A program made the translations under genes and the position numbers. From positions 1 to 40,429 of the IMG/VR virus record IMGVR_UViG_3300050821_011785: DNA of 40,429 nt. The stretch is one strand, 5' to 3'. Position 1 is the stretch's first letter; each line of letters opens with the position of its first letter. Positions 2,868-39,986 of the stretch are shown one piece after another. This DNA comes from a virus. The notes under the pieces are model-generated. The model had not been told where the DNA came from. It saw only the letters and a list, made by a program, of their open reading frames with translations, and made no database searches.

Positions 2868-4424
2868 ATGTCAGAACAAAAATATACGAAGGAAGAAGTA
2901 TTAGCAAAGATTAATGCCTATAGAAAAGAGTGCTTATCAAGTTTTCTACGCTTTACAAAAGCTATGTATAAGTTACGCACTGGTAGGGATTTTGAGATAT
3001 CGCAACCACAGGGGCGCGAGTCCCACTATATTACGATCGCTAAAGAGCTATCATCAGTCGTTCGTGGTGAAAATCAAAATCTCATTATTAACGTTCCGCC
3101 GCGCTATGGAAAAAGTGAATTAGCTATCCACTTTGTCGCTTGGACATTAGCGATGTATCCCGATAGTAATTTTCTTTACATATCTTATTCGCATGAATTA
3201 GCCGCTAAGCAAACATCTACAATTCGTTCTATCGTTACAATGCGCGATTATCGAAATGTTTTCGGTGTGTTTTTGAAGGAAGAATCTCAAGCCAAACATA
3301 ATTTTGAAACAATTCGGGATGGTTCAGTATATGCAGCTGGTGCTGGCGGTACGATTACGGGTCGTGGTGCGGGTGTTCGTGGAATTATCGATAGATTTAG
3401 TGGTGCCATCATCATCGATGATATCCACAAACCAGATGAGGCAACCTCTGATACGATTCGTGAGGGTATTTTTGAGTGGTACTACAATACGATGATTTCT
3501 CGTAAGAATAATGCGAAGACTCCCATCATTTTTATTGGTCAACGTGTTCATGAATCAGATCTTGCCGCGCATTTGATGAAAGAAGAAGGATTTAAACTCG
3601 TCTCTATTCCTGCAATTGATAAAGCGGGTAATATTCTCCATCCAGGACTGCATACACGTGAAATGCTAGCTGATATGGAGGCTCGTACCCCTTATGTTTA
3701 TGCCGCCCAATATCAACAAGATCCACAACCAGCAGGTGGTGGTATTTTTAAGCCGGACTGGTTCTATCTCATGGATGAAGATCCCGAAATATTAGCGACA
3801 TTTATCACTGCCGATACTGCTGAAACCGACAAAACCTATAATGATGCTACCGCTTTCTCCTTTTGGGGTATCTATAGGATTAAAAATGAGAGAGCGCAGA
3901 CTGATGAATTTGCACTCCATTGGCTAGATTGTCGTGAAGTGAGGGTTGAACCCAAGGATTTGGAGGCAGAGTTCATGGATTTCTATACGCTATGCTGTCG
4001 CCATATGGTGCCACCAATGATTGCCGCTATTGAAAAGAAATCAACGGGGGTCACGCTAGCATCTACTCTCAAAAAATTACGTGGTCTTCGAATTATGGAG
4101 ATCGAGCGCACACGAGGAAGCGGATCTAAGATTGAACGATTCTTGCGCATTCAACCTCATGTAGCTAGCCGCCTCATTTCAATAAATTCCAGAGCTTTCC
4201 ATAAAGATGTGGTCGTGGAACATATGCGAAAAATCACCGCTAACTTATCCCATGCCCACGATGATATAGCTGATACTGTCGTTGATGCCGTAACTCTCGC
4301 ACTAATTGACAAAGTAATAGTCAGCCGTATCATTACTTCTACAGATAACAATCTGCAAGCGAAATCAATTATGTCTACCTATACTAAAATCAATGAATTA
4401 CGTAAGAGTGCTTATAAGCCATGA
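2868..4424 (+). CDS. terL: Terminase large subunit
   Basis: 518 aa, full length for the family. The N-terminal ATPase has Walker A in NVPPRYGKSE (about residue 76), Walker B in IIIDDIH (about 184) and a coupling motif near IFIGQR. The C-terminal RNase-H-like nuclease has the acidic residues TADTAETD (about 314), IEKK (about 388) and HDDIADTVVDAV (about 465). It packages DNA into the prohead through the portal and cuts the concatemer, working with the small subunit at 38272. The stop overlaps the next start. Confidence 0.95.
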   Translation: MSEQKYTKEEVLAKINAYRKECLSSFLRFTKAMYKLRTGRDFEISQPQGRESHYITIAKELSSVVRGENQNLIINVPPRYGKSELAIHFVAWTLAMYPDSNFLYISYSHELAAKQTSTIRSIVTMRDYRNVFGVFLKEESQAKHNFETIRDGSVYAAGAGGTITGRGAGVRGIIDRFSGAIIIDDIHKPDEATSDTIREGIFEWYYNTMISRKNNAKTPIIFIGQRVHESDLAAHLMKEEGFKLVSIPAIDKAGNILHPGLHTREMLADMEARTPYVYAAQYQQDPQPAGGGIFKPDWFYLMDEDPEILATFITADTAETDKTYNDATAFSFWGIYRIKNERAQTDEFALHWLDCREVRVEPKDLEAEFMDFYTLCCRHMVPPMIAAIEKKSTGVTLASTLKKLRGLRIMEIERTRGSGSKIERFLRIQPHVASRLISINSRAFHKDVVVEHMRKITANLSHAHDDIADTVVDAVTLALIDKVIVSRIITSTDNNLQAKSIMSTYTKINELRKSAYKP

Positions 4425-4732
4425 TTAATGAAATATGTTATGAAGAGGTAAGGGATCGTCTACGAGACGACTTAAGATTATATGATGAATTAACATTGGA
4501 GCGCGTTAACGATCAATTAAATGATATTCGTCATATGTGGGAAACTTTTAAACATTTACATGCTAGAATTGAAGCCTGCGAAAAGATGGTTACTAGCTAT
4601 TCAGTTGGAGTCCAAAATGTTTATAATGAGTTCAAGATGTTGGAAGAGAAATATGGCGATCTCTCAAAAGTGATACATAGTAGGAAAATAATTAATCGTT
4701 TACGGGAATTGAAGGAAATATTCTCAGAATAA
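4421..4732 (+). CDS. Hypothetical helical protein between terL and portal, 103 aa
   Basis: The gene overlaps the terL stop by four bases. It is almost wholly helical and charged, with heptad-like spacing, and is probably a coiled coil. Such small genes between TerL and portal are common in P22-like phages without known function. Confidence 0.65.
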   Translation: MINEICYEEVRDRLRDDLRLYDELTLERVNDQLNDIRHMWETFKHLHARIEACEKMVTSYSVGVQNVYNEFKMLEEKYGDLSKVIHSRKIINRLRELKEIFSE

Positions 4733-4747
4733 CATAAGGATCGGAAC

Positions 4748-6868
4748 ATGGATGTTCCAGCCCAACGTTACCAAGATCGACTTCAATCGATCAAGGATAA
4801 AGTTAAGAATACGTATGAATCATTTAGATCAAATTATGATCGTTTTAATAAGTTTCGTAAATTTGTATTTGATACATCTTTGCGAGATGAGGAGATCTCT
4901 CTTCTAGCGACCATCGGTAAGCCACAGCTAGAATTCAATGTTACGGAAGCCTATATTTCTCGTCAGCTTGGTGAATTTTCTAAACACGAGCCGAGCATTC
5001 AAGTATCAGCAGAAAACGAGGATCAAGTCGATCCTTTGACAATCAAAGTTGTTGATATGCATATGCGCCATCTTCTCTCTGATTCTAAGAGTCGCCATGC
5101 CTCCTACAATATTCACAAGGATCTTTTATCTGGCGGCTTCTCTGTCTTTAAGATAACGACTGACTACGCTAATCCGATGTCTATGGATCAAGTAATCAAC
5201 ATTGATCGAGTATATGATCCAACTATGTGTGGTTTTGATCCACTCGCTCGATATTCCCATAAAGGAGATGGTCGTTTCTGCTTCGAACTCTTTCCGATGT
5301 CGAAAGAAGAATTTGAGGAAACATATCCTGATGTGGATATTGATGAACTCGCTTTTACGAGAGGGTTTTCTGGCTTTAATTGGTCATACCTTAATGATAA
5401 TACACCTACATTAATCGTAGCTGATTATTACGAGAAGAAGAAAAAGAAGACTAAGATTGTTTCCGTTAGATCCCCTAATGGCCAAAAACCAAAAGTCATG
5501 ACACTTGAAGCCTATAATAAAAAGAAGGCATCATGGGATGGTATGGAACAGTTTCCTGGCATTATTGGCAAGCCACGTGAAACCATGATTGAAACTATTT
5601 GTCGCTATCGTTTAATTGAAAACATGGTGATTGAATATGTGGAAACTGATTTTGGTATGTTCCCTCTTGTATTTGCTGATGGCAATAGTGTTATGTTACG
5701 CATGCCTAAAAACGGGAACATGCGCCAGTTTACCAAGCCTTACATTTATCATGTAGAAGGTGCGCAACGACTTAAGAACTTTGCTGGGATTGCACTTGCC
5801 AATGAAATTGAAAACATGGTGCAACATAAGTTTAAAGTCTCCAAAGAATCACTCCCCAAAGAGGAAGAATTTTTACAAGCCTATAAAGATGTGCAGAAAG
5901 CATCGGTGCTTGTCTATAATGAATTTTTTGAACAAGATCCAAATGCAAGAACTACGCCGCCACAAGAAATAGCGAGAGTTCCACCCCCTGCTGAAGTTCT
6001 TCAAACCTTTGTTGGTACAGATTCTTTAATGCAAAACATTTTGGGTAGCTATGATGCTTCCCTGGGTATTAACGATAATCAGTTATCTGGTGTAGCAATC
6101 GTAGAAGCCGCCACACAATCAAATGCTGCTGCCATGCCATATATTGTTGGATATCTACAGGCACTTCAACGGGTAGCTGAAATCGTTGTTGATCTAATAC
6201 CTAAATATTATAAGACGGCTAGAACTATTCCCATCCTTGATGAGCAAGGCAAACGAAACTTTGTTAAAATCAATCAAGAGAATGGCGTTGATATGTTCTA
6301 CGATGAAAATGCGCTAAACGTAAAAGTCGAAGCTGGCGCCAACTTCCAAATTCAAAAGAGTCGTGCACTTCAGCAAATCATTATGTTATGTCAAGCCTCT
6401 CCATTATTCGCAGAATTTGTTAATACTAAGGGTCTACCAATTCTCTTGGATAACATAGAGATTCGTGGCATCGATCAAATTAAATTAGTGGCTGAAGATT
6501 GGTTACAAGAAGTAGAGAAACAGAAGGCGCAACAACAACAAATGCAGCAACAACAAGCAATGAATATGCCAGCTATGTTAAAAGCTAAGAATGATGCAAT
6601 GAAAATTCAAGTCGATGCACAAACATCTGCACAAGAAGCGCAAGTTAAGATGTATGATACGCAGATGAGAGCGCAAGCCGAACAAGCAAAAGCTGATGCA
6701 GAAAAAGCGCGAGCTGAAGCGGATATTGTTTTGAAAAATTTAGAAGTTAACTCCCGAATTAAACACGAACAAATAAAGATGGCACACGATCATGCGAAAA
6801 ATATCGCAGATCATCACGTGAATATGCAGAAAATTAAATATCAAGCAAAACAAAGGGAAACAGAATAA
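4748..6868 (+). CDS. Portal protein, P22-like
   Basis: 706 aa, close to P22 gp1 (about 725). The dodecameric portal forms the DNA channel at one capsid vertex and docks TerL and then the gp4-like adaptor. Residues 1-590 have the portal organisation, with FEQDPNARTTPP and SGVAIVEAATQSNAAA typical of the family. The C-terminus (about 597-700) is Gln-rich followed by a long Ala/Gln/Lys coiled coil, like the barrel extension of P22 portal. Confidence 0.9.
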   Translation: MDVPAQRYQDRLQSIKDKVKNTYESFRSNYDRFNKFRKFVFDTSLRDEEISLLATIGKPQLEFNVTEAYISRQLGEFSKHEPSIQVSAENEDQVDPLTIKVVDMHMRHLLSDSKSRHASYNIHKDLLSGGFSVFKITTDYANPMSMDQVINIDRVYDPTMCGFDPLARYSHKGDGRFCFELFPMSKEEFEETYPDVDIDELAFTRGFSGFNWSYLNDNTPTLIVADYYEKKKKKTKIVSVRSPNGQKPKVMTLEAYNKKKASWDGMEQFPGIIGKPRETMIETICRYRLIENMVIEYVETDFGMFPLVFADGNSVMLRMPKNGNMRQFTKPYIYHVEGAQRLKNFAGIALANEIENMVQHKFKVSKESLPKEEEFLQAYKDVQKASVLVYNEFFEQDPNARTTPPQEIARVPPPAEVLQTFVGTDSLMQNILGSYDASLGINDNQLSGVAIVEAATQSNAAAMPYIVGYLQALQRVAEIVVDLIPKYYKTARTIPILDEQGKRNFVKINQENGVDMFYDENALNVKVEAGANFQIQKSRALQQIIMLCQASPLFAEFVNTKGLPILLDNIEIRGIDQIKLVAEDWLQEVEKQKAQQQQMQQQQAMNMPAMLKAKNDAMKIQVDAQTSAQEAQVKMYDTQMRAQAEQAKADAEKARAEADIVLKNLEVNSRIKHEQIKMAHDHAKNIADHHVNMQKIKYQAKQRETE

Positions 6869-26182: not shown

Positions 26183-27619
26183 TTAAATATAGCAGGTACC
26201 ATCTTTGTAGACTAGTTTTAGCTCATTATCGGGCTGGTGAAATTCATCCCAGGAACAATTTTGTTCTACGTGGAACGTTGAGCCATGTGCTCCCGCTACT
26301 TTGACGACCTTTAAAATACCAGAGTGTGATTTTTTTGTACCATCATCGGTTACCGGATCTTTCGTTATAGGATAGCCAACACCGTGCCGCTCGCAATAGG
26401 TGCTTTTCATTGCCCACCCAAGTGTATCGCGAGTATTATATTGATAAGTATAGCTGCCAATACCAAAGACAATATTGGAAGCGGCGAATCCTTTCCGTTC
26501 CAACCGTTCAAGAATATCTCTAGCGCGATCAAGAGTGATTGAATCACTATAAATACAGCCAATATGTGGATCAAGGACTTTATACCCCTCTGAATTAATT
26601 GTTCCACCAAAAATGTTCCACAGACATTCGATGACACCTTTACAAACATAATCATTAAAACCGATACATTCTCTATAGAAATCAGAAAATGAATCAAGAC
26701 CGCATATTATTTCTACAGGATCGCCACTATCAGGTCTAATAACAACTCTGCCATCTCTAGCCATAATTCTGTCTTTGAGCCGAGGCAAAAAATCAGTAAT
26801 AACAGTCCAAAGATTCCAAGTATCACTAACGATGGAAATAAAACCGGATGGATAGACATCGCAAATTAATCTTTTAAAGGTATCAAATTCGCTATCTTTG
26901 CCACCAGCAGACATCACACTATGTTCGGTTGCTGGAATTGACGCAATTTGGAATGGCGTATGATAGTGTTGATTTCTTGCTATCAATGCTGGGATGCTAT
27001 CTGTACCCTTAAAATATTGTAGATGCGCCATACCAGAGATAATAGCTGCCTCTAATCCGAACATACCACGCATACTAAAATCATGTGCCTGATAATCAAC
27101 GTGTGCGTTGTTATCGCAAGTTTTGACGGCAAATTCATCTAATAACCAACGATATTCTCGCGCAATGGTAGCTGAGGTGCATGCACCCCACAATGTACAG
27201 GATAAGATAGTTTCAAGCATATTGGGTAGCCAGAAAAACTCAGGATGAGTATTAAACATCACGAGCGCTGGCACACCACATGGCACGACTGTACCTTCTG
27301 GTAACGCATATACTGCGAGCGGAAGGTGGCCTAAATTGCATAGCTTCTCTATATGATCAAATGACTTATCTGTACCTAATGTTTTACGCATAATAAGAGA
27401 ATAGTAGTTATGGAGATGAGAGGAACCAATTGCAGAATAGAATTCAAATGCGTTTAGATATTTATCAATAAAATATTTTAATCCAAAGAAAACTGCATGA
27501 TTTATACCAGGCATTCTCGATTTACGTGGCGTAAAATTACTAAAGATTAATTCGGTGCCTTCGGGGTATTGATCGATATGCCCCACCTTATAAAAATCTT
27601 TTAAAAATAAGGGATTCAT
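26183..27619 (-). CDS. nadV: Nicotinamide phosphoribosyltransferase
   Basis: 478 aa from the ATG at 27619, which overlaps the previous stop by one base. It makes NMN from nicotinamide and PRPP. Family motifs: LKDFYKVGHIDQYPEGTELI (N-terminus), HDFSMRGMFGLEAA, FKGTDSIPAL, PATEHSVMSAGGKDSE with the catalytic His, and VVIRPDSGDPVE. Full length with key residues kept, so probably active. It ends the Ro/Y-RNA operon. Phage NAMPT is known to restore NAD+ after host NADase defences; here no NMN adenylyltransferase is visible, so a host enzyme would finish the pathway. Confidence 0.93.
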   Translation of the reverse strand: MNPLFLKDFYKVGHIDQYPEGTELIFSNFTPRKSRMPGINHAVFFGLKYFIDKYLNAFEFYSAIGSSHLHNYYSLIMRKTLGTDKSFDHIEKLCNLGHLPLAVYALPEGTVVPCGVPALVMFNTHPEFFWLPNMLETILSCTLWGACTSATIAREYRWLLDEFAVKTCDNNAHVDYQAHDFSMRGMFGLEAAIISGMAHLQYFKGTDSIPALIARNQHYHTPFQIASIPATEHSVMSAGGKDSEFDTFKRLICDVYPSGFISIVSDTWNLWTVITDFLPRLKDRIMARDGRVVIRPDSGDPVEIICGLDSFSDFYRECIGFNDYVCKGVIECLWNIFGGTINSEGYKVLDPHIGCIYSDSITLDRARDILERLERKGFAASNIVFGIGSYTYQYNTRDTLGWAMKSTYCERHGVGYPITKDPVTDDGTKKSHSGILKVVKVAGAHGSTFHVEQNCSWDEFHQPDNELKLVYKDGTCYI

Positions 27620-28074
27620 TATGGCATATCCTTCATTGAGTTCTGGAGGCAGAGAACCCCATTTCTGCGCCACATACCTACACACTCTTCTTTATCATCT
27701 ATTGCTAATAGAATCTCAGTACCACTACGTTTTAAGTGACGTAAGACTTCTTCTTTATATTCCCAAGGTTTACCCTGATTTCCATCTTTATCTTTATAAT
27801 CATCTTCACGCATGAATAAATACTCAAAAGGAATCTCATACTGAACTAACCAAGAATTCGTCATAGATCGATATGATTCTGGTCGAGCTGTAACCAAATA
27901 AATATCATGGTGCTGATTTAATCTTCTAACTAATTCAGCGGTAGGTTTAATAGGTAGATCTTTCTTCATGGCATTAAAGAATGAATTCCAATCTTGCTTA
28001 TCATCTGTAACGAAATGTCTACGATGACGACAATCTGCAATAGTCCCATCTATATTAACAATGATAGTGCTCAT
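27619..28074 (-). CDS. HAD protein of the polynucleotide-kinase 3'-phosphatase type, with Asn at the nucleophile position
   Basis: 151 aa. Motif I reads IIVNIDGTIAD, where DxDGT is expected, so the nucleophilic first Asp is Asn. Motif II is LVTARPESYRSMT, motif III Lys lies near KPWEYKEEVL, and motif IV is LLAIDDKEECVGMWRRNGV, close to the phosphatase half of T4 Pnkp. The kinase half is absent. Known Pnkp phosphatases remove 3'-phosphate from RNA ends. With Asn this copy may be inactive, bind RNA ends only, or depend on deamidation. It is coupled to nadV by a one-base overlap. Confidence 0.8.
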   Translation of the reverse strand: MSTIIVNIDGTIADCRHRRHFVTDDKQDWNSFFNAMKKDLPIKPTAELVRRLNQHHDIYLVTARPESYRSMTNSWLVQYEIPFEYLFMREDDYKDKDGNQGKPWEYKEEVLRHLKRSGTEILLAIDDKEECVGMWRRNGVLCLQNSMKDMP

Positions 28075-29146: not shown

Positions 29147-29211
29147 CATTGATCCCCGACTGGGCGGCTTAGTCGCTTCAAGGAGATTGGACGAGCCCCT
29201 TGGAATCAATG
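29147..29211 (-). ncRNA. Structured RNA element after the vWA gene
   Basis: In the minus transcript CATTGATTCC (from 29202-29211) pairs with GGGATCAATG (from 29147-29156) as a 10-bp helix with one G-U. It encloses hairpins CCAAGG/CCTTG and CGACT-AAGCCGCCC-AGTCG. An alternative GCCGCCC/GGGCGGC stem competes. The helix uses the last codons of the vWA gene. It may mark an RNA 3' end, a processing site or a terminator. Confidence 0.45.
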
Positions 29212-29859
29212 ATTTACAGCAGTGGCCGCTGTTAAGAACGATGTGTTCTCTAATCGCTCAATATGAAAGATATCATATTTAGTACGAGAATTTTCCAAAT
29301 TTTCATGTAAATCTTCTAAGAATTTTTGAAGCGAAGGTTCTAACGTACCAACCGTTAAAAAGGTGATATTGAATTCTTCAGCACTCGTAACTTTACCGGC
29401 AATACTGACGATAGCGCGTTCTGTCGCCATACGATTAGTCGGTGCGCCATCAGTGAAAACAAGAAGTACAGAACCAGGATGTTTCTCACCTTTAGTTCGA
29501 GCTTCTTCTTTCTCCTCACAATGTTTATTCCATGCAACATTGATGACAAGATCAATATTAGTTAATCCTTCAAAGCGTGGATTATTGAGGAGATTAGCGA
29601 CTGTTTCGTATTTTGCATGTTCATGAACATAAACATCTTTACCAAATAATAGAATGGTAGGAGCACCATGTTGATCAAAATCTTCTGCGCTTTTAATAAA
29701 ACTTTGGAAACTTTCTAGCATATATTCATAACGACTAACGCCACCACATGCAGGATCGACGGTCTGCATAGATGCGGAGATATCACCAGCAAGGAAATAT
29801 TCCTTATTTGGATTCACCTCAAATTGTGTGGTCTGTGTTTTTAATTTAGTGATTGACAT
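29206..29859 (-). CDS. vWA-domain protein, partner of Ro60
   Basis: 217 aa, essentially one von Willebrand A domain. The metal-binding MIDAS is kept: DISASM (about 27), the Thr near GLTNID and the Asp of FTDGAPTN. It resembles TerY-like vWA proteins rather than the Ro vWA. Only eight bases separate it from rsr, so the two are co-expressed and may bind each other or a shared ligand. Cytosolic, with no TM segment. Confidence 0.85.
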   Translation of the reverse strand: MSITKLKTQTTQFEVNPNKEYFLAGDISASMQTVDPACGGVSRYEYMLESFQSFIKSAEDFDQHGAPTILLFGKDVYVHEHAKYETVANLLNNPRFEGLTNIDLVINVAWNKHCEEKEEARTKGEKHPGSVLLVFTDGAPTNRMATERAIVSIAGKVTSAEEFNITFLTVGTLEPSLQKFLEDLHENLENSRTKYDIFHIERLENTSFLTAATAVNH

Positions 29860-29867
29860 AATTATCC

Positions 29868-31319
29868 TTAAAGTTTTGATTCTGGAACAATAAATTTTGT
29901 GGGAGCCGTTTTTACAGTAGGTTCTGCGCGCATCTTCTGACGCATTTCCTCATAAAGATAGATCCAATCAAGTGTAGCTGATGAAAAGCCATCGATATGA
30001 GACCACTTACCATAGCCGATCCCATTTTTATTAGTCGCGACATTAATAACATAACTATCTGGCGTCTTCGGATCAGGTACATCTGTTTGTGATTGCTCAT
30101 CAGTAATAACGATTAACCGATGTAGGCCAGATTCTCTATTGTATGGCGATGTATAATAGTCTTGGACAGCAATAACAGCTCTACGTAAATCTGTACCACC
30201 ATTGGGTTGAGAATTAATAATAGCATCACGTAACGCAAATCCGCGTCTTGGTGGAACTTGTTTGCATTGATTGCTAAACGTCCAAATATCAGGTGTCTCA
30301 CACATTTCTCGTAACATCATGGCTAGCGCACATGCGGCATCCATATACGTCATTTCAGATTTACTAGACATTCTGCCTGACATAGAGCCGGACACATCAA
30401 CTAAGATCACGGTTTTACCTTGAAACTTACGTTTGTGTTGAAATGAATTAAAAAGAGCTTGCTCTAATTCAGGTTCAAAAGTAGGAGCGTGCTTTGCAGC
30501 TGCAATATATTGGTATGGGAATATTTGTCGTTTTTTATCCCATGTTGGATGGCTAAACGCTGATTTAAGCTTCTCAAGATGATTATCAGATACACGATTA
30601 ACAATACAATTACGTAGGTTACGGAGTAGTGCTAGTTGATTGTTAATTTTTTCAGGTGTAACCCAAACATCGATAATTTTCTCCCATGTCTCACCCTTAT
30701 TTTCACCAACTTTTGCAGCAGATAATGTTTCCCACGTTTCAATAGCCGTAAGTTCATTATTAATTAATCGTTTCCAAACTTGCGCTTGTTCCTCATCTTT
30801 TGGTTTTGCATGACATAAGAATAGAACATCGCGCAATTTCACTGCTTTATCTAAGCGATTATATTTGCGTAAATCATATTCGCTGAATTTTTGGAATGCG
30901 AACGCCAGACCTGTTTTAACTTTTGATGATAGAGTTTTCTTCTTATTATTATCTTGCCAATAAAGGCTAACGAAATCCGTTAATTGATCGGGTCGAGTAA
31001 TGACGCGCGATAAGGTGCGGGATACATAGCGCTTGTATTGAGGTAGTCTCGCCATCTCACGAATAATTAATAGCGGAACATGTCTAAGCCCCATTTTTTC
31101 ACGTGCTTCTACCGCTAATTTAGAGACGATTAAGGGATCAACTTTTGCAATTAATTCTTTAATACATTCAGCAATATCTTGACCATTCTCATAGAAGCCA
31201 TTTTCAAATAGCATGCAGCTTAAGACGCTTCGTCTGAGTTGTTGTTCATAGGAAATATGTTTTGCGGTTGCACCTTCATGCGTTTTTAATATTGGAACTT
31301 TTTTATTTAATACAGACAT
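29868..31319 (-). CDS. rsr: Ro60-family TROVE protein (Rsr)
   Basis: 483 aa (human Ro60 is 538). Residues 1-300 form the alpha-helical TROVE ring (YKRYVSRTLSRVITRPDQLT and neighbours); residues 305-460 are a vWA domain with intact MIDAS: VDVSGSMSG, GGTDL and ITDEQSQTD. Bacterial Rsr binds Y RNAs on the outside of its ring and misfolded or decaying RNA inside, often with exoribonucleases in RNA quality control. Four Y-like RNAs lie just upstream on the same transcript, 18 bases before its ATG. Confidence 0.95.
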   Translation of the reverse strand: MSVLNKKVPILKTHEGATAKHISYEQQLRRSVLSCMLFENGFYENGQDIAECIKELIAKVDPLIVSKLAVEAREKMGLRHVPLLIIREMARLPQYKRYVSRTLSRVITRPDQLTDFVSLYWQDNNKKKTLSSKVKTGLAFAFQKFSEYDLRKYNRLDKAVKLRDVLFLCHAKPKDEEQAQVWKRLINNELTAIETWETLSAAKVGENKGETWEKIIDVWVTPEKINNQLALLRNLRNCIVNRVSDNHLEKLKSAFSHPTWDKKRQIFPYQYIAAAKHAPTFEPELEQALFNSFQHKRKFQGKTVILVDVSGSMSGRMSSKSEMTYMDAACALAMMLREMCETPDIWTFSNQCKQVPPRRGFALRDAIINSQPNGGTDLRRAVIAVQDYYTSPYNRESGLHRLIVITDEQSQTDVPDPKTPDSYVINVATNKNGIGYGKWSHIDGFSSATLDWIYLYEEMRQKMRAEPTVKTAPTKFIVPESKL

Positions 31320-31337: not shown

Positions 31338-31476
31338 GGGAGAATAGTCGATAAGAAGCTTTTTGTGTCCCAGGTTTGACCGCTTCCTTTACTTAAGATG
31401 GAGATAAGGAGAGATTCGAACTCACGAAGCCAATAGGCAGGACATTTTGATGAAGTATTTCTTATCTTCGCTACCC
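31338..31476 (-). ncRNA. Y RNA unit D, with tRNA-like insert
   Basis: 139 bases, last in transcription order. 5' GGGTAGCGAA-GATAAGAA pairs with TTCTTATC-GACTATTCTCCC: an 8-bp perfect upper stem above a conserved internal loop and GGG/CCC base, the same plan as the other units. The insert holds a T-arm-like hairpin with loop TTCGAAT (31409-31425), a closed acceptor-like region and a D-arm-like GTC/GAC hairpin (31367-31380). Part of the insert (CTTATCT) could instead pair with the 5' strand AGATAAG, a possible switch. Confidence 0.75.
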
Positions 31477-31487
31477 TTAAATTAAAT

Positions 31488-31597
31488 GGGTGAATAATTG
31501 ATAATAGCGAACTCTTTCGAGTTATATGCTCCTTAACAGAGCTAACTTCCGTAAGGAAGTATTGGCACTGATGATGAAACTATTATCTACGCAACCC
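31488..31597 (-). ncRNA. Y RNA unit C, divergent insert
   Basis: 110 bases. 5' GGGTTGCGTA-GATAATAG pairs with CTATTATC-AATTATTCACCC; the upper stem is a perfect 8 bp. The insert has ACTTCC-TTAC-GGAAGT, directly followed by TA and a D-arm-like GCTC-TGTTAAG-GAGC, then a GAAA-tetraloop hairpin AACTC/GAGTT. This is the acceptor plus D-arm half of the mimic in unit B, without the T-arm. Confidence 0.7.
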
Positions 31598-31609
31598 TTA
31601 AATTAAAAT

Positions 31610-31740
31610 GAGGGCACAAACGATAGATGAAATTTTAGCGCTCTACCGACTGAGCTACACAATGCAAACAACACACAATGGCAGGACTCGAACCTGCGAC
31701 CTCTCACTAATAGGTGAAGTAACACCTATCTACGCCACTC
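31610..31740 (-). ncRNA. Y RNA unit B, YrlA-like with circularly permuted tRNA mimic
   Basis: 131 bases. Base: GAGTGGCGTA-GATAGGTG with CATCTATC-GTTTGTGCCCTC (8 bp, one G-U). The insert reads in permuted tRNA order: variable AGGTC, T-arm GCAGG-TTCGAGT-CCTGC, then CATTGTG, a 9-base loop, CATTGTG (self-complementary bar one U-U), TA, then D-arm GCTC-AGTCGGTA-GAGC. The Y stem takes the place of the anticodon arm. This matches the published design of bacterial YrlA RNAs, whose effector module folds like tRNA. Confidence 0.85.
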
Positions 31741-31773
31741 TTAAATTCTCTATCTACAAACGCAGAAATAAAT

Positions 31774-31839
31774 GGGAGAATATATGAAATTCGTGTCTGT
31801 ATCATTCCAATAATGAAGGAACGAATTTCTACGCCACCC
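31774..31839 (-). ncRNA. Y RNA unit A, minimal
   Basis: 66 bases, first in transcription order, about 27 bases after the -10. GGGTGGCGTA-GAAATTCGT pairs with ACGAATTTC-ATATATTCTCCC; the upper stem is a perfect 9 bp. The loop holds only a TCATT/AATGA hairpin, with no tRNA-like arms. It keeps the shared Ro-binding-type base, so it may be a Rsr ligand without an effector module. Confidence 0.75.
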
Positions 31840-39317: not shown

Positions 39318-39392
39318 ATGGCCGACGATACTTTTAAAGAGATACAATGGCAAGCCTTAGTGCTCGATGTGTATAATCGGAAGGGAAAATAA
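39318..39392 (+). CDS. Short peptide, 24 aa
   Basis: Six bases after the TM peptide. MADDTFKEIQWQALVLDVYN, then a basic end. Soluble helix. No site decides the start; support is from coupling only. Confidence 0.35.
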   Translation: MADDTFKEIQWQALVLDVYNRKGK

Positions 39393-39417
39393 GCCGTTCT
39401 AAAAAATAGAAATCTCG

Positions 39418-39438
39418 CCGCATGTGTAGCGCATGCGG
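39418..39438 (+). ncRNA. Hairpin at the head of the RNA cluster
   Basis: CCGCATG-TGTAGCG-CATGCGG, a perfect 7-bp stem with 7-base loop. It follows the last peptide gene and may protect or process the RNA transcript. A factor-dependent terminator is the alternative. Confidence 0.5.
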
Positions 39439-39452
39439 TTATACTGAGTGAA

Positions 39453-39507
39453 AATGCCTTTTACTTGACGAATGAGTATCACTCATAGGATGAGAGTAAC
39501 GGGCATT
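39453..39507 (+). ncRNA. Structured RNA element with nested stems
   Basis: AATGCC pairs with GGCATT, TTAC with GTAA inside it, and ATGAGT-ATC-ACTCAT forms the tip. The three nested helices are too regular for chance. Not identifiable as a tRNA. Part of the same transcript as the tRNAs. Confidence 0.45.
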
Positions 39508-39509
39508 AT

Positions 39510-39567
39510 GGCAATCGGTTGTATGTCGAGACGTCCAGTTATTAGCTAAGATGACTGGCCGATTGCC
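39510..39567 (+). ncRNA. Degenerate tRNA-like RNA, copy alpha
   Basis: GGCAATCGG pairs with CCGATTGCC (9 bp) at the ends. The interior has GAGACGTCC and CCAGT/ACTGG. It shares the ends, GAGACGTCC, CTAAG and CTGGCCGATTGCC with the RNA at 39919, so the two are paralogues; this one is nine bases shorter and has lost the T-arm-like hairpin. 58 bases, too short for a normal tRNA. Confidence 0.5.
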
Positions 39568-39582
39568 AAAAGAACCCCGACT

Positions 39583-39655
39583 GCTCATAGGTGGCTCGAC
39601 GGTTATAGGTAGTTGTCATGACAACTACTACCGCTTTAAATATCGAGAATAGAGC
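39583..39655 (+). ncRNA. Long nested hairpin ending in a 20-bp perfect palindrome
   Basis: Nested pairs GCTC/GAGC, CTCGA/TCGAG and CGGT/ACCG enclose GTAGTTGTCATGACAACTAC (39609-39628), a perfect 20-bp palindrome. As RNA it is a long stem; as DNA the palindrome could be a dimeric protein site. Between two tRNA-like RNAs. Confidence 0.55.
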
Positions 39656-39663
39656 ATGGTTAT

Positions 39664-39748
39664 GCGTCCCGTACATGAAGGTGAACCATTTTGGTGACGT
39701 CAACCAAATGGTAAATCTACGATGGGTTAAAATCCCTGGGGCGCACCA
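39664..39748 (+). ncRNA. tRNA-like RNA with encoded CCA and extended anticodon arm
   Basis: GCGTCCC pairs with GGGGCGC (7 bp, one G-U), followed by A and an encoded CCA. The T-arm-like hairpin is GGG-TTAAAAT-CCC. In place of a 5-bp anticodon stem there is a 10-bp stem with one bulge (ACCATTTTGGT with ACCAAATGGT) closed by the 7-base loop GACGTCA. No U33, so unlikely to decode. It could be a decoy or structural tRNA mimic. Confidence 0.5.
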
Positions 39749-39756
39749 GTTTATAT

Positions 39757-39828
39757 AGCCGATTAGCGCAGCGGTAGCGTATATGCCTTGGGCGCATAGG
39801 GTCGTCAGTTCGAATCTGGCATCGGCTA
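39757..39828 (+). tRNA. tRNA-Pro(UGG)
   Basis: 72 bases. Acceptor AGCCGAT/ATCGGCT perfect, D-arm GCGC/GCGT, anticodon stem TATGC/GCATA perfect with loop CTTGGGC (anticodon UGG), T-arm GTCAG-TTCGAAT-CTGGC, discriminator A. No CCA encoded. Likely functional. Confidence 0.9.
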
Positions 39829-39836
39829 ATGATTAT

Positions 39837-39909
39837 TGCGGGATGGTGTAGAGGTCAACATAATGCGCTCATAACGCAAAGATCGTCGGTTCAAATCCGA
39901 CTCCCGCAA
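39837..39909 (+). tRNA. tRNA-Met(CAU), initiator-like
   Basis: 73 bases. Acceptor TGCGGGA/TCCCGCA, D-arm GTGT/ACAT, loop CTCATAA (CAU), T-arm GTCGG-TTCAAAT-CCGAC. The stack of three G-C pairs next to the anticodon loop (GCG/CGC), the weak U1-A72 pair and the GTCGGTTCAAATCC T-arm resemble initiator tRNA, while U11-A24 is elongator-like. An isoleucine role after lysidine modification is the other option. Confidence 0.85.
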
Positions 39910-39918
39910 AAGATTAAT

Positions 39919-39986
39919 GGCAATCGCGGCATAAAGGAGACGTCCTCTATAAAGACCTAAGCCAGTGCAATTCTGGCCGATTGCCT
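39919..39986 (+). ncRNA. Degenerate tRNA-like RNA, copy beta
   Basis: GGCAATCG pairs with CGATTGCC (8 bp). A T-arm-like hairpin GCCAG-TGCAATT-CTGGC is present, but the D and anticodon arms are irregular; CTCTATAAA could be a 9-base loop between GTC and GAC. Shares GAGACGTCC and both ends with the 39510 RNA. A broken tRNA, a suppressor-type tRNA (CUA within the loop) or a tRNA mimic. Confidence 0.5.

Follow-up and report, generated by a model that had tools for sequence, protein, structure and literature searches.

Covarying families of small structured RNAs, one with tRNA-like ends, in the tRNA arrays of uncultured phages

Introduction

Within its tRNA cluster, phage T4 encodes the stable RNAs C and D, which are not tRNAs. 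GOLLD and ROOL are likewise structured phage RNAs often found near tRNA islands (PMC12286853), and phages are known to rely on their own tRNAs against defences that cut tRNA (PMC10264068). Some RNAs also imitate tRNA itself, including tmRNA, in which tRNA-like ends flank other sequence replacing the anticodon arm, and the Y RNAs (YrlA, RF02553) that accompany Ro60 and provide a tRNA-mimicking RNA in phages.

Where a phage tRNA array shows gaps, these are readily dismissed as pseudogenes. Here, we analyze an array at the right end of a 40,429-base IMG/VR record of a soil phage with genes for a P22-type portal and a large terminase (this whole stretch of DNA being referred to as the window), in which such gaps are filled by covarying RNA families. 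These families recur across dozens of contigs from uncultured phages and are missing from Rfam, and no description of such array RNAs was found in the open-access PMC literature. Their consensus structures and loops are defined exactly here, as are the predicted cut sites, and may help to test the reasons for which phages maintain tRNA arrays.

Results and discussion

Structured elements around two tRNA genes

ARAGORN and Rfam called only tRNA-Pro and tRNA-Met in the array. Besides both tRNAs, we detected five structured elements between positions 39453 and 39985, and a sixth (e0) upstream at 39319-39396. A first-pass annotation had proposed five structured elements plus these two tRNAs within 39453-39986, a layout now borne out by folding, ARAGORN, and Rfam, while e0 had been overlooked. 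The features of the array are listed below, with folding z-scores computed for each element against 200 dinucleotide shuffles:

39319..39396, + strand: e0, family B element (detailed below)
39417..39439, + strand: perfect 10-bp hairpin between e0 and e1; z -3.6
39453..39507, + strand: e1, structured, no relative found; z -4.8
39509..39568, + strand: e2, with a 10-bp perfect closing helix; z -5.0
39569..39659, + strand: e3 (family C), a variable middle flanked by constant parts (39569-39611 and 39626-39659)
39663..39748, + strand: e4, tRNA-like as read from the sequence, ending in ACCA; z -2.4
39756..39829, + strand: tRNA-Pro (UGG), called by ARAGORN and Rfam
39836..39910, + strand: tRNA-Met (CAU), called by ARAGORN and Rfam
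39919..39985, + strand: e5, short variant of family A with an 8-bp closing helix; z -2.7

Overall, folding on the + strand is stronger in the array stretch (mean z -1.05) than elsewhere in the window (-0.22). For e3, the z-score was -2.2 (calculated over 39573-39660), and its middle includes a perfect palindrome at 39609-39628. The e2 closing helix, TGGCAATCGG/CCGATTGCCA, is as in family A, with a 9-bp hairpin and 6-nt loop at the place of the family A T-arm-like hairpin. The acceptor of e4 is GCGTCCC/GGGGCGC followed by A and CCA, and is combined with a short T-arm-like hairpin and a long middle hairpin; this element received no tRNA call from ARAGORN and no Rfam tRNA match even at E<=10. Sigma-70 promoters and terminators were no more frequent in the region than in shuffled sequences.

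The elements starting near 39510 and 39919 (e2 and e5) had been described as paralogues with an acceptor-like helix of 8-9 bp, and both indeed carry GGCAATCG / CTGGCCGATTGCC, with a score as high obtained in 1 of 2000 shuffles. The accompanying argument that perfect helices exclude decay is weak when taken alone: in relatives, perfect 8-bp helices show no enrichment around such arrays (1.55 vs 1.40 per kb), and we thus did not count generic helices as evidence. Instead, the real proof of such predicted elements is covariation in relatives.

Relatives of the array in uncultured viral contigs

Searching named phages directly with the array DNA yielded a match to tRNA-Pro alone, and a capsid gene search of 50,697 named phage records returned no close relative. 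The same capsid gene identified 80 close relatives among uncultured viral contigs, two of which matched e5, and both displayed a longer RNA with the same ends. A T-arm/acceptor-strand pattern then matched 29 viral contigs, compared to ~3 expected by chance according to our own estimate. Single-protein searches gave no match for the Ro60 protein encoded in the window, and only a 100% identical fragment for TerL. A separate pattern, GGCAATCG..GCCGATTGCC, was rejected: none of its 69 loci in viral contigs was an array element, and these matches were thus attributed to chance.

Family A carries tRNA-like ends and a variable insert

The longer RNAs define family A, which was detected in ~28 contigs from both related and unrelated ~40-kb phages. 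Its members are built from an 8-bp acceptor-like helix, 5-bp D-arm-like and 5-bp T-arm-like hairpins with invariant loops GACAGUGA (D-like) and UGCAAUU (T-like), and a variable insert of 30–160 nt standing where a tRNA has its anticodon domain. Without any demand on pairing, elements were selected by the two loops only (GACAG[CT]G[AG] and [AG]TGCAA[CT]TC). Among the 35 places retrieved, 28 pair almost fully, 2 (in contigs L159 and L274) show partial pairing, and the remaining 5, without pairing, are chance matches. Very different acceptors all pair, including GGCAATCG/CGATTGCC, GAGACGCT/AGCGTCTC, GGAAATAG/CTATTTCC, and GAAATCCT/AGGATTTC. In an alignment of the family A ends (n=27), 98.9% of cells were paired, a percentage inflated because alignment rows were picked partly by pairing. 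Compensatory changes are better evidence for the family: both sides had changed in 14 of 18 pairs, and covariation reached 0.472, against 0.146 for shuffled alignments and <=0.10 when slid.

We next evaluated the place of e5 in this family with a covariance model (R1) built from relatives alone, the window being left out. This model recovers e5 at 42.2 bits (E 4.8e-12), and e2 scores 13.1 bits (E 0.078), through its closing helix alone. Of 42 contigs, 23 contain a match to the model, several of these having been picked by capsid gene alone. The e5 element keeps the 8-bp acceptor-like helix and the T-arm-like hairpin GCCAG-TGCAATT-CTGGC, while 32 nt replace the D-arm-like hairpin and the insert. 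Window copies of array elements are partly shortened. An acceptor helix stacked on a 5-bp T arm with a 7-nt loop is a feature of both e5 and family A.

The inserts themselves displayed little common structure. No convincing fixed third helix or anticodon arm was found after the D arm, and inserts of the 27 aligned elements (32–163 nt long) fold no more than shuffled sequences (mean z -0.32). When 38 family A elements were compared, only 4 groups of similar inserts emerged, the others being mutually unrelated at the cut-off used. A guide or antisense role was rejected, as the excess of 14-mer matches elsewhere came largely from duplicate loci and homologous elements; together with the lack of folding beyond shuffles, this leaves any role of the insert unsupported. 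A host chromosome origin was likewise set aside: among 36 genomes of the matched order, the family A structure was found in a single one, and this only match in the genome collection lies on a 36-kb contig that also carries genes for endolysin and tail fibre.

Constant ends around unrelated inserts, along with a scattered presence in non-homologous gene neighbourhoods, could also be expected from mobile units at the DNA or RNA level. We regard this as distinctly improbable, since helices maintained by compensatory change would be needless for a DNA site, and an unsystematic look revealed neither target-site duplications nor an encoded enzyme.

Families B and C in the same arrays

Family B comprises 32 elements in the fetched contigs, and a pattern for its loop matches 27 viral contigs. 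Its member in the window, e0, includes a TGGCC / (A)GCC closing helix around a conserved internal loop, GACGATACT ... GGGAAAATA, and a variable inner stem, and is slightly decayed with 4 of 5 closing pairs. Across the family, this inner stem differs in sequence between elements yet covaries (0.367 vs 0.157, a value reached in 0 of 500 shuffles); the covariation was also checked against a re-dealt control. Sequence comparison shows that families A and B are conserved as structures, with e5 and e0 as their respective members.

Family C is represented by e3 and by its near-identical relative in another phage contig, L265. The two are 100% identical over 43 nt (4837-4879 in L265) and 34 nt (4934-4967), while their middles differ. 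Further search identified no third copy.

These families bear directly on whether the elements are simply decayed tRNA genes and chance hairpins left in a tRNA array. In these genomes, perfect 8-bp helices often arise by chance, the D-arm-like hairpin of family A has been lost in e5, and comparison with other contigs revealed no convincing relatives for e1, e2, and e4, which may be decay products. However, families A and B covary over many contigs, and e3 matches a copy from another phage without a difference over 77 nt, so that decay is improbable as an explanation of the array as a whole. The proposal in the first-pass annotation of more than decayed tRNAs is supported for e5. Similarly, its suggestion of tRNA mimics is supported for e5, whose family has covarying acceptor-, D-, and T-like arms. 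It had also named a lack of compensatory changes in relatives as part of the grounds for dismissal; given the 14 of 18 pairs with double changes in its family, this is excluded for e5.

Comparison with known RNAs

At gathering scores, Rfam 15 matched only tRNAs in ten array contigs, and a segment with two family A elements had no match at E<=5. No Rfam match to tmRNA (RF00023), GOLLD, or ROOL was obtained in array sequences. Family A is like tRNA (RF00005) in its acceptor-, D-, and T-like arms and in the CCA at the 3' end of some copies, and tRNAs share arrays and strand with the array elements. Unlike tRNA, however, it has an 8-bp acceptor helix, the D-loop GACAGUGA, a T-loop with G where tRNA has U55, and an insert in place of the anticodon arm, and it is unseen by ARAGORN and Rfam. 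The likeness to tmRNA lies in tRNA-like ends around other sequence replacing the anticodon arm, whereas the 30–160-nt insert is mostly unrelated between copies and showed no conserved tag frame when the frame from the leader ATG alone was followed. While Y RNAs share with array elements a likeness to tRNA, the Ro60-stem signature is missing from the array, and a TROVE gene from nearly all relatives that carry such arrays. GOLLD and ROOL are large single RNAs, in contrast to an array of many short units from several families, one with tRNA-like ends. T4 RNAs C and D, as non-tRNA RNAs located in a phage tRNA cluster, may offer a further parallel.

By analogy, the array RNAs would work most like tRNA mimics such as Y RNA and the tRNA-like domain of tmRNA, while their location is most like that of GOLLD and ROOL. 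Since the comparisons above place them in none of these four, we consider them new families within a known broad kind, phage tRNA-mimicking or tRNA-island RNAs.

Array organisation and proposed processing

The organisation of these arrays is illustrated by L265 positions 3900-5400, where, as read by eye, ~13 units from families A, B, C, and others follow each other in 1.5 kb. A UUUAU leader precedes the elements (T 42, T 46, T 40, A 51, and T 57 at positions -5 to -1, n=60), CCA directly follows 15 of 32 family B elements, and NCCA directly follows only 4 of 28 family A elements. Every tRNA located up to 800 bp from an element (15 tRNAs in 11 contigs) has the orientation of that element. From the leader, the encoded CCA, and the same-strand tRNAs, we infer co-transcription and tRNA-type processing. 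Since some array-bearing contigs have no detectable relative of the capsid gene of the window, the arrays extend beyond a single phage lineage.

The array thus probably, if by no means surely, represents the end of a tRNA operon consisting mostly of non-tRNA structured RNAs, which would be co-transcribed and processed, and would combine a constant scaffold with a changeable middle. Most units would be tRNA-like and other small structured RNAs from several phage families, and the whole array would yield a single precursor transcript. RNase P, along with RNase E/Z-type enzymes, may cut this precursor at the UUUAU leader that precedes each closing helix. Cleavage would then generate stable RNAs, with tRNA-like ends that may protect them or recruit a tRNA-binding factor, and in family A a tertiary contact between D-loop and T-loop is predicted. 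The changeable middle could act on a partner that itself changes, which would most likely be a factor of the host or of a rival phage encountered during infection.

More tentatively, these arrays may be part of a widespread phage RNA system that acts in trans during infection. Its polycistronic tRNA-like units would each combine an exchangeable middle with a scaffold kept constant for processing and recognition. If so, a phage could carry up to a dozen different units, as a modular RNA counterpart of phage protein effectors. The array families, with their variable middles, are candidate RNA effectors.

Alternatively, in line with the first-pass annotation, these RNAs could be tRNA decoys, titrating tRNA-cutting or tRNA-modifying defence enzymes that recognise the acceptor, T arm, or elbow. 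The maintenance of acceptor-, D-, and T-like arms by compensatory change would fit such a role, the tRNA-based countering of tRNA-cutting defences provides a precedent (PMC10264068), and mostly unrelated middles are consistent with an arms race. However, family A has no fixed anticodon-like hairpin, and families B and C share the arrays though not tRNA-shaped, and overall we consider decoys rather unlikely. The missing anticodon arm argues against decoys of anticodon nucleases, but not against decoys of acceptor or elbow enzymes.

The leader is also relevant to the suggestion that elements are short coding genes starting with ATGG and encoding peptides such as MAIAAWTVTR, as AT precedes the first G in nearly all elements. 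Yet third codon positions diverge least in the constant ends, frames stop after 10–34 codons, some copies have ACG, and changes track base pairing, which makes a coding function extremely unlikely.

A Ro60 gene with its own candidate Y RNAs

A TROVE/Ro60 protein is encoded at 29868-31319 (-), ~8 kb from the array, and four tandem Y RNA-like elements are found just upstream of this gene:

31774-31839, - strand: Y RNA-like element
31608-31740, - strand: Y RNA-like element, matching Rfam YrlA over 31608-31738 at 32.4 bits, below the cut-off of 69
31488-31597, - strand: Y RNA-like element
31338-31476, - strand: Y RNA-like element

Similar Y RNA ends are found upstream of Ro60 genes in other phages, and a comparable gene and RNA layout is present in Xanthomonas phage Olaya, Caulobacter phage CcrPW, and uncultured contigs. 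Because the phage encodes Ro60 and Y RNAs mimic tRNAs, the array could in principle provide the Y RNAs of this Ro60, and L159 has TROVE and a family A-like element together. However, the conserved Y RNA ends present beside the Ro60 gene (31338-31839, -) are absent from the array, which has no Rfam YrlA match either, and TROVE was detected in just 1 of 50 related or array-bearing contigs. This explanation is thus very unlikely, Y RNA identity being ruled out by the absent end signature, and with 49 of 50 contigs devoid of TROVE, the tRNA-like RNAs of the array represent a set of their own.

The window also encodes a separate VWA-domain protein (29206-29859, -), its gene lying directly downstream of that for Ro60. 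In Xanthomonas phage 10KY502B, an annotated tRNA-Thr (L074 19792-19859) lies just upstream of a TROVE gene; this site resembles the Y RNA region of the window, and is probably a Y RNA misannotated as a tRNA. Upstream of another phage Ro60 gene, a 73-nt sequence (L086 9112-9184) matches tmRNA ends at 65 bits and is too short for a full tmRNA.

Other observations

Elsewhere in the window, a nicotinamide phosphoribosyltransferase gene and an overlapping partner ORF (26183-28074, -) form a possible NAD-restoring counter-defence pair.

Several further tRNA-like units were observed in other contigs. Two of them, missed by ARAGORN (L265 3977-4070 and L280 3048-3135), combine T-loops UGAAANN and an enlarged D region with anticodon-like loops reading UUA, which would decode the UAA stop, and UUG. 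A tRNA-like gene with a shortened anticodon arm, located close to a family A element, scores 42.7 bits (L254 4288-4355, -). In Rhizobium phage RHph_X2_28B, an element closed by a 7-bp acceptor-like helix lies between tRNA-Asn and tRNA-Thr (L079 3787-3868), and has GTCCTCTATAAA in common with e5 of the window. At L251 12027-12330, a unit resembling family A has the canonical D- and T-loops of tRNA; behind it lie a short ORF and then a second 3' half made of T arm and acceptor. After the tRNA array of Klebsiella phage KpLz-2_45, ~1.1 kb of unannotated sequence (L290 1936-3060) includes a match to a unit of the L265 array, which recurs in other ~300-kb Klebsiella phages. Finally, L265 5280-5390 and L252 15335-15455 represent a further unit type, with GAGATCGCCGG ... 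TAGATCG ... GGATGTAGG in common and different closing helices.
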